In this document: positions 14,885 to 15,264 of the stretch, piece after piece
Layout: every line of letters starts with the position of its first letter
How positions within the stretch are numbered: the first letter of the stretch is position 1
NCBI GenBank assembly: GCA_903876445.1
Contig: CAIQZX010000126.1
Span: 1 to 47,363, forward strand
Direction: 5' to 3'
DNA length: 47,363 nt
Origin: an uncultured Pseudomonadota bacterium
GTDB lineage: Bacteria; Pseudomonadota; Gammaproteobacteria; Methylococcales; Methylomonadaceae
Translations under genes and position numbers: made by a program
The notes under the pieces: generated by a model
Told to the model about the DNA's origin: nothing
The model's input: only the letters and a program-made list of their open reading frames with translations
Databases searched by the model: none

Positions 14885-14896
14885 TTTCTCATAGGC

Positions 14897-15072
14897 AATA
14901 AAAAGCCCGCTTTTAAGAGCGGGCTAGCTTGAGCAATTATTTTTATTATTTTCTTGTCGTACTAAGTCTTTTACTCAGCGACGCGGCTCAAGTGAAAAAA
15001 TTTCTAACTAGATTATTGTTATTGTTATTTCGCTTTTTCAAGCTACCAACCTAAACGCTTTCGTGTGAAAGC
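14897..15072 (-). ncRNA. Candidate structured small RNA with two (ARN)n Hfq-type tracts
   Basis: On the minus strand a promoter, a structured body and a strong terminator together define a transcript of about 176 nt. The 5' end forms a perfect hairpin (CGCTTTC / GAAAGCG, 15056-15073). An 18-nt stretch at 15012-15029 reads AATAACAATAACAATAAT, six consecutive A-A-N triplets, and a 15-nt one at 14936-14950 adds five more. Between them lies a GTCG-CTGAGT / ACTTAG-CGAC hairpin (14956-14982). The 3' segment 14925-14934 can pair perfectly either with 15038-15045 (TAGCTTGA/TCAAGCTA) or with 14986-14992 (CTTGAGC/GCTCAAG), but not both. The transcript ends in AGCCCGCT-loop-AGCGGGCT plus T5. No open frame fits. 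(ARN)n is the distal-face target of Hfq, so an Hfq- or Crc-titrating role like CrcZ is possible. It does not match 6S, tmRNA, 4.5S or RNase P RNA as I know them. Confidence 0.5.
14899..14930. terminator. Intrinsic terminator of the candidate small RNA (also downstream of the fmdB-like gene)
   Basis: The stem AGCCCGCT (14904-14911) / AGCGGGCT (14918-14925) has a 6-nt loop. On the minus strand it is followed directly by TTTTTATT, a proper terminator. On the plus strand the T tract is absent at the stem, so it mainly serves the minus-strand RNA. Confidence 0.75.
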
Positions 15073-15078
15073 GGGCGC

Positions 15079-15108
15079 ATTTTAGCCGCAAAAAAACAAT
15101 TGTGTCCA
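15079..15108 (-). promoter_or_regulatory. Predicted sigma-70 promoter of the candidate small RNA
   Basis: TGGACA (15103-15108), an 18-nt spacer and TAAAAT (15079-15084) each match five of six consensus positions. The predicted start is near 15072, exactly at the foot of the 5' hairpin. Confidence 0.55.
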
Positions 15109-15264
15109 TTTAAAAAACAGATTGTTTATCCATTATGAAATAAAGGTTAATGAATACAGTTTATTAGCGAATGATCTCCAAATGAGATTCTGGCAAAGTT
15201 TGCCCCTATAAATCGACATAATGCTGTATTATTTGCAATAAATTAAACATTATTGCTAACTCAA

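Follow-up and report, generated by a model that had tools for sequence, protein, structure and literature searches.

A conserved predicted small RNA of Methylococcales with two AAN tracts, a candidate decoy for Hfq

The minus strand between fmdB and recJ in the window (the whole stretch of DNA that was analysed, 47,363 nucleotides long) carries a promoter, hairpins, A-rich tracts and a terminator in close succession. Do these make up a genuine RNA gene, and on what would such an RNA act? A sequence-only reading had proposed an undescribed small RNA (sRNA) with a bistable fold that might sequester Hfq. The promoter, the 5' hairpin, the two AAN tracts and the terminator that it described were all recovered at the positions it gave, and the elements of the predicted gene are as follows.

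15109..15160, minus strand: A/T-rich upstream region, a possible UP element or activator site (12 genus loci)
15103..15108, minus strand: -35 hexamer TGGACA
15079..15084, minus strand: -10 hexamer TAAAAT, from a promoter scan and homologue comparison
14897..15073, minus strand: predicted sRNA of about 177 nt, from the layout, its 5' end assumed to be the foot of the hairpin
15056..15073, minus strand: 5' hairpin CGCUUUC-ACAC-GAAAGCG
about 15045-15038, minus strand: UAGCUUGA, alternative partner of the 3' segment
15012..15029, minus strand: tract 1, AAN x6 (AAU AAC AAU AAC AAU AAU), candidate Hfq distal-face site
14986..14992, minus strand: 5' arm of the outer helix, CUUGAGC, from folding and homologue comparison
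14956..14982, minus strand: inner hairpin between both tracts, from folding
14936..14950, minus strand: tract 2, AAN x5 (AAU AAU AAA AAU AAU), candidate Hfq distal-face site
14928..14934, minus strand: 3' arm of the outer helix, GCUCAAG, which together with 14926-14927 has UAGCUUGA as its alternative partner
14897..14925, minus strand: intrinsic terminator with an 8-bp stem, a loop of 6 and a T-run
14925-14904, minus strand: terminator stem, adjoined by the T-run

The outer helix CUUGAGC/GCUCAAG (14992-14986 with 14934-14928) encloses the second hairpin and tract 2. Of the flanking genes, recJ (DHH, DHHA1 and RecJ_OB domains) is divergent from the sRNA and fmdB (Zn_ribbon_8) is convergent with it. 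We rejected a small-peptide gene, since 36 of 79 homologues lack a complete ATG-started frame; the longest frame among the 79 has 44 codons with GTG and TTG allowed.

In a window as A/T-rich as this one, the promoter and the tracts, each taken singly, stand out only a little. The promoter TGGACA-N18-TAAAAT (15108-15079) agrees with the consensus at 10 of 12 positions, and five promoter-like sites were counted in 900 bases where 3.2 are expected. Five-repeat AAN sites number seven in the window against 3.3 expected, a count that 6 of 100 shuffles reach. The 2.8-Mb draft genome has a single copy of AAYAAYAAYAAYAAYAA, which lies within the sRNA and is the sole AAYx6 site there. The computed fold of the sRNA (-47.4 kcal/mol; shuffle mean -36.2) is better than those of 200 out of 200 shuffles.

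Conservation is what places the sRNA beyond chance. BLASTN matched it in 12 of the 17 other genomes of the window's genus and in 8 of the 19 other family genomes searched, the latter mostly through the 3' end alone; secondary matches (L021-L023) were set aside as unrelated protein-coding sequence by their appearance. A pattern search of named records, which used CTCAA, the terminator and ATTG and made no use of the AAN tracts, returned 72 loci. We judged 66 of them to be homologues, and rejected six by eye as unrelated (L025, L041, L050, L054, L076 and L088). The titles of the homologous records name Methylobacter, Methylovulum, Methyloglobulus, Methylocucumis, Methylococcaceae, Methylococcales and an uncultured proteobacterium, and cultivated carriers include Methylobacter tundripaludum, Methylobacter luteus and Methylovulum miyakonense. 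The window is accordingly assigned to a Methylococcales methanotroph, whose family is probably Methylomonadaceae in GTDB. A covariance model (R1) was built from 46 pattern-found sequences, and its match in the window spans 14895-15090. At E<=0.001, R1 matched 183 of 237 family genomes, including 144 of the 173 of good quality, in 27 of 29 genera; a lack of conservation in relatives, which would have refuted the sequence-only reading, is not what was seen. The element is thereby confirmed as real at the level of sequence comparison.

Across the order, R1 at E<=0.01 matched 151 of 201 genomes in 39 of 48 genera; by row count, 41 matched genomes belong to four other families of the order, some with E-values near the limit. 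Across the class, at E<=0.001, it matched four of 369 genomes, namely the window's own, two more of the order, and G653, whose locus (L129; E 1.6e-4) has by eye no recognisable promoter or 5' domain. We rejected the last as a true class-level homologue, and the match looks like chance. An R1 match is absent from 5 of the 18 genus genomes, including one (G005) that is 97% complete. Some genomes, such as G171, G181 and G160 (genus g12), have two or more matches in different places; because both loci of G171 (L146 and L147) keep the promoter, the tracts and the terminator, paralogues exist. For the comparisons, set A3 left out seven near-identical sequences (L039, L056, L068, L069, L078, L089 and L095), seven genus duplicates and six truncated loci, and set A5 comprises 79 homologues chosen by hand from those found.

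An Rfam search had been suggested as a check. At gathering scores, neither the window nor any of 27 homologous loci matched an Rfam 15 family, bar rRNA genes in L139, and no known class was recognised. The sub-threshold matches, which fall mostly on the 3' half of the sRNA or on its terminator, were taken as chance; the best are Trp_leader (E 6.5e-4; 28.8 bits, where the cut-off is 41), Arrc14, AgvB and isrK. In literature lying mostly outside subscription journals, we found no regulatory RNA of such kind in Methylococcales methanotrophs, and the passages of PMC10992012 that were available describe none. Judged by its conserved sequence, the sRNA is a real RNA family of Methylococcales that is uncatalogued in Rfam 15.

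A promoter of its own, part of the original proposal, is strongly conserved. All 60 untruncated pattern-found homologues show T[AG]GAC[AG], a spacing of 16-18 and TANAAT, as the best-scoring hexamer pair that a script took for each homologue, and the Methylococcales sRNA would be transcribed from it. Upstream of the -35, a position-wise consensus of 12 genus loci shows conserved stretches around 15109-15131 and 15145-15160: GGAAA.AATCTGTTTTTTAAAT adjoins the -35, and further upstream lies a stretch resembling TATTTATTA. These A/T-rich stretches, weakly visible in a further 64 family loci but not visible in nine loci outside the family, are a possible UP element or activator site.

The surroundings of the gene vary. 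In 57 of the 93 loci compared, which include some duplicates, the sRNA follows, at a distance of 129-330 nt, a co-directional gene from a single cluster, whose representative is a BepA-like M48 peptidase scoring below the BepA NCBIfam cut-off. This recurrent neighbour would fit an RNA processed from the end of an upstream mRNA rather than encoded by a separate gene, but the promoter stays conserved at loci with different neighbours and the gene upstream in the window, recJ, is divergent, and we give this origin hardly any credence. The position between recJ and fmdB is found in the window's genome only, among the 93 loci, so that aligning the syntenic gap, as had been advised, would miss the sRNA in relatives. 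Within the window's genus, too, it occupies several places. The sRNA changes its gene neighbourhood and keeps its promoter. In seven of 13 genus loci (L002, L005, L007 and L010-L013), the upstream neighbour at about 120-160 nt belongs to a cluster represented by NnrS, which from its annotation we take to be nitric-oxide-related; its presence alongside the candidate globin targets discussed below may be a coincidence. A metal link through the neighbours was rejected, the TonB receptor of L026 scoring below every NCBIfam cut-off.

Relatives were also compared for covariation, another of the suggested checks, and co-varying helices were found. In the model-fitted alignment of the 79 homologues, which is biased towards the model, 28 of 34 pairs change on both sides, 88% of cells pair as against 36-47% with slid partners, and none of 500 shuffles reaches any of five measures. 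The unfitted alignment of 46 sequences has 17 pairs with two-sided changes, a number reached by 16 of 500 shuffles, and a covariation score above all shuffles; its number of pair types is unremarkable (reached by 139 of 500 shuffles) and the RNAalifold covariation term is small. Helices 1 and 2 are the weakest, with 81% and 68% paired in the 79-homologue alignment, and by eye the outer helix is not obvious outside the family.

The fold had been described as bistable, the 3' segment choosing between two partners and so exposing or hiding the A-rich tracts. Both pairings are indeed possible in the window's strain, where the segment can pair with UAGCUUGA over 8 bp or with CUUGAGC over 7 bp, and forced folds of -46.2 and -47.0 kcal/mol, respectively, lie only 0.8 apart. 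As a conserved mechanism the idea fares poorly, since only one of the 11 genus members has the 8-bp Watson-Crick alternative (three if G-U pairs count) and all 11 have the CUUGAGY/RCUCAAG helix, with 5-8 contiguous Watson-Crick pairs. Nor would the choice of partner affect the tracts: tract 2 stays unpaired in either computed fold, and the local structure of tract 1 does not change between them. Because the alternative is rare in the genus and leaves tract pairing unaffected, we do not take the switch as the mechanism and consider it very improbable.

The pair of AAN tracts, which the sequence-only reading had singled out as six and five repeats, persists in relatives. Across the 79 chosen homologues, the longest AAN run averages 5.56 repeats and the second 4.22, against 2.32 and 1.80 in dinucleotide shuffles. 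Both runs are reached by at most 5 of 100 shuffles in every one of the 79, and the same holds for ARN in 78. The second run is short in some homologues (two repeats in three, three repeats in ten). Since R1 contains the tracts, the homologues found with it are biased in this respect, and the pattern-found ones are unbiased. The third letter of the repeats is not fixed: T occurs there 414 times, C 131, A 62 and G 7. The predicted probability of being unpaired is 0.68 for tract 1, 0.82 for tract 2 and 0.42 for the rest of the sRNA; adenines outside the tracts reach 0.63, nearly as open as tract 1, which counts against a decoy role.

Two separated tracts of this ARN type would fit the distal face of the Hfq hexamer, and the RNA likely binds Hfq, to judge from these repeats. 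Because Hfq is encoded in the window's genome and in 56 of the 61 genomes searched, the CrcZ-like idea stands as a proposal. At position 25 of Hfq, we observed F in three family proteins (L176, L179 and L182, the last from the window's genome) and Y in two proteins (L172 and L173) of another family of the order. Y25 is a distal-face residue mutated in PMC4063720, as its available passages describe, and we counted the F of the family against the decoy reading.

The closest functional parallel is CrcZ of Pseudomonas, an RNA of 407 nt with six (A-R-N)n repeats that, in the accessible parts of PMC4063720, titrates Hfq via its distal face. Like CrcZ and the related CrcY, the sRNA is non-coding with several (A-R-N)n tracts, and from this likeness binding to the distal face would be expected. 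Counting stretches of n >=4, the sRNA has two, of six and five repeats, in about 177 nt, and CrcZ has six in its 407 nt. The promoter of the sRNA is sigma-70-like, whereas that of CrcZ is RpoN-dependent and CbrB-activated; the gene neighbours also differ, and relatives of the sRNA have a GGA domain, unlike CrcZ. The CrcZ/CrcY covariance model gave no match at the gathering score and is absent from the permissive lists of three representatives. A separate Crc was not found in the window's 96%-complete genome, whose one Exo_endo_phos protein matches an exodeoxyribonuclease (2jc5) at 1e-95 and Crc (4jg3) at 2.9e-67. We counted this negative result, along with the five genus genomes that gave no R1 match, against the decoy reading.

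We weighed two main uses of such tracts. The first is that the sRNA is a decoy like CrcZ that acts mainly by occupying the distal face of Hfq, in a family that would ancestrally have had a module for binding CsrA. With two tracts instead of six, a decoy would need a high RNA level. The second is that the sRNA is an ordinary Hfq-dependent pairing sRNA. Class II sRNAs of this kind combine an ARN tract with an intrinsic terminator. The AAN tracts would then load Hfq and a conserved stretch elsewhere would pair with mRNAs. The ARN tracts and the terminator with its U-run fit this layout too, and the 5' domain contains a strongly conserved purine-rich stretch, which reads UUUAGGUAGGUAGC in the genus and GAGGRGG elsewhere. 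That stretch differs by lineage, however, and the AAN tracts do not; the sRNA also departs from class II in that it has a pair of long tracts, and the single 12-mer tested had no recurrent target. Its complement, CTACCTACCTAA, was counted 13 times over the 18 genus genomes; 10 of these sites belong to the sRNA gene itself, and BLASTN shows no similarity among the loci of the other three. This count, which covered exact 12-mers only, speaks against a seed in that genus-conserved 12-mer; the window's own copy of the UUUAGGUAGGUAGC stretch is different, and short or imperfect seeds may exist. We regard a pairing sRNA as quite possible but somewhat unlikely. The Hfq decoy comes close to an even chance without reaching it; it is the best single reading, although not far ahead of the pairing sRNA.

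If Hfq were occupied by the decoy, mRNAs that carry a comparable AAN tract next to their ribosome-binding site would be freed from it. In the genus, AAYx5 tracts are followed within 40 nt by an ATG on the same strand at 12 of 41 loci and on the other strand at 4 of 41 (the counts are 10 and 3 for 25 nt, and 17 and 5 for 60 nt). The loci of this count, 40 hand-chosen stretches plus L205, are partly orthologous and hence not independent, so that the excess before start codons is no more than suggestive of competitors for the decoy. The candidates are mRNAs of truncated haemoglobins (Bac_globin). Among 17 genus copies (L277-L291 and L294 among them), 10 have in their leaders an AAN run of 3-6 repeats that stops 16-18 nt short of the start and immediately precedes the ribosome-binding site, and seven lack it; with the four leaders that led us to the gene excluded, 6 of 13 have the tract. 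Both close copies in the window's genome (L280, G000:C211; L293, G000:C91) carry it. Control of truncated-globin mRNAs by Hfq is possible, and A-rich leaders may be explained otherwise, such as by translation enhancement. The way in which the globin leaders were found, together with the openness of the other adenines, slightly lowered our estimate for the decoy. An AAY tract just upstream of the start was also observed in L205 (G014:C135), an unassigned ORF with a very long tract, in the protoglobin L263 (G003:C30) and in the YgaP-like membrane proteins L244 and L269. Five AAYx6 sites outside the known sRNA loci (L197, L198, L202, L204 and L205) were read and rejected as further copies of the sRNA (best 22 bits).

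The comparison of homologues revealed a second domain, which the sequence-only reading had overlooked. Outside the genus, all 68 homologues have GGA in the 5' domain, and 61 have GAGGRGG (all 10 from outside the family and 51 of the 58 from the rest of the family); within the genus, GGA is found there in none of 11. The 5' end of relatives outside the genus is often a hairpin with GGA in its loop. Such a hairpin near the 5' end is possible in 42 of the 68; over 200 rounds of composition-only shuffling the number averaged 17.9 and never exceeded 27. ANGGA in a loop is a site for CsrA/RsmA, and the 5' GGA domain of most relatives probably also binds CsrA. CsrA is encoded in 57 of the 61 genomes searched and in 17 of 18 of the genus, and we rejected loss of GGA through loss of CsrA on the latter count.

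RsmX/Y/Z and CsrB/C likewise have GGA in hairpin loops and linkers, and the RNA could in principle be mainly a sponge for CsrA, of the RsmZ/CsrB kind, with the AAN tracts accessory. The universal GGA of the 68 homologues, the prevalence of GAGGRGG, the excess of GGA loops over every shuffle and the wide occurrence of CsrA would agree with this. Yet no genus member keeps the 5' GGA even though nearly all genus genomes have CsrA, one to four GGA per RNA are few for a sponge, 26 of the 68 are without a GGA-loop hairpin, and no Rsm or Csr family is among the Rfam matches listed. Compared with the known sponges, the sRNA has fewer GGA (none in the 5' domain of the genus), two AAN tracts and no Rfam match, and we find a CsrA sponge improbable.

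That a single sRNA should deal with both proteins has a precedent in McaS of E. coli, which is linked to Hfq and CsrA; we saw no homology between it and the sRNA. The ancestral RNA of about 180 nt may have been a double decoy, for Hfq by its AAN tracts and for CsrA by its GGA hairpin and GAGGRGG, from which the window's lineage shed the CsrA half, a history that we consider possible but rather doubtful. Under the Hfq decoy reading that we prefer, most relatives would probably bind CsrA through the 5' domain as well, and the window's genus would have kept the Hfq part only.

If the decoy reading is true, RNAs that titrate Hfq exist beyond Pseudomonas and its kin, and such titration may not need Crc. 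A double decoy, if true, couples two global post-transcriptional regulators in methanotrophs, with the window's lineage as a natural separation-of-function variant. Because the genus has naturally lost GGA and retained the AAN tracts, what each domain does can be tested directly, and the sRNA offers a handle on global regulation in methane consumers used in biotechnology.
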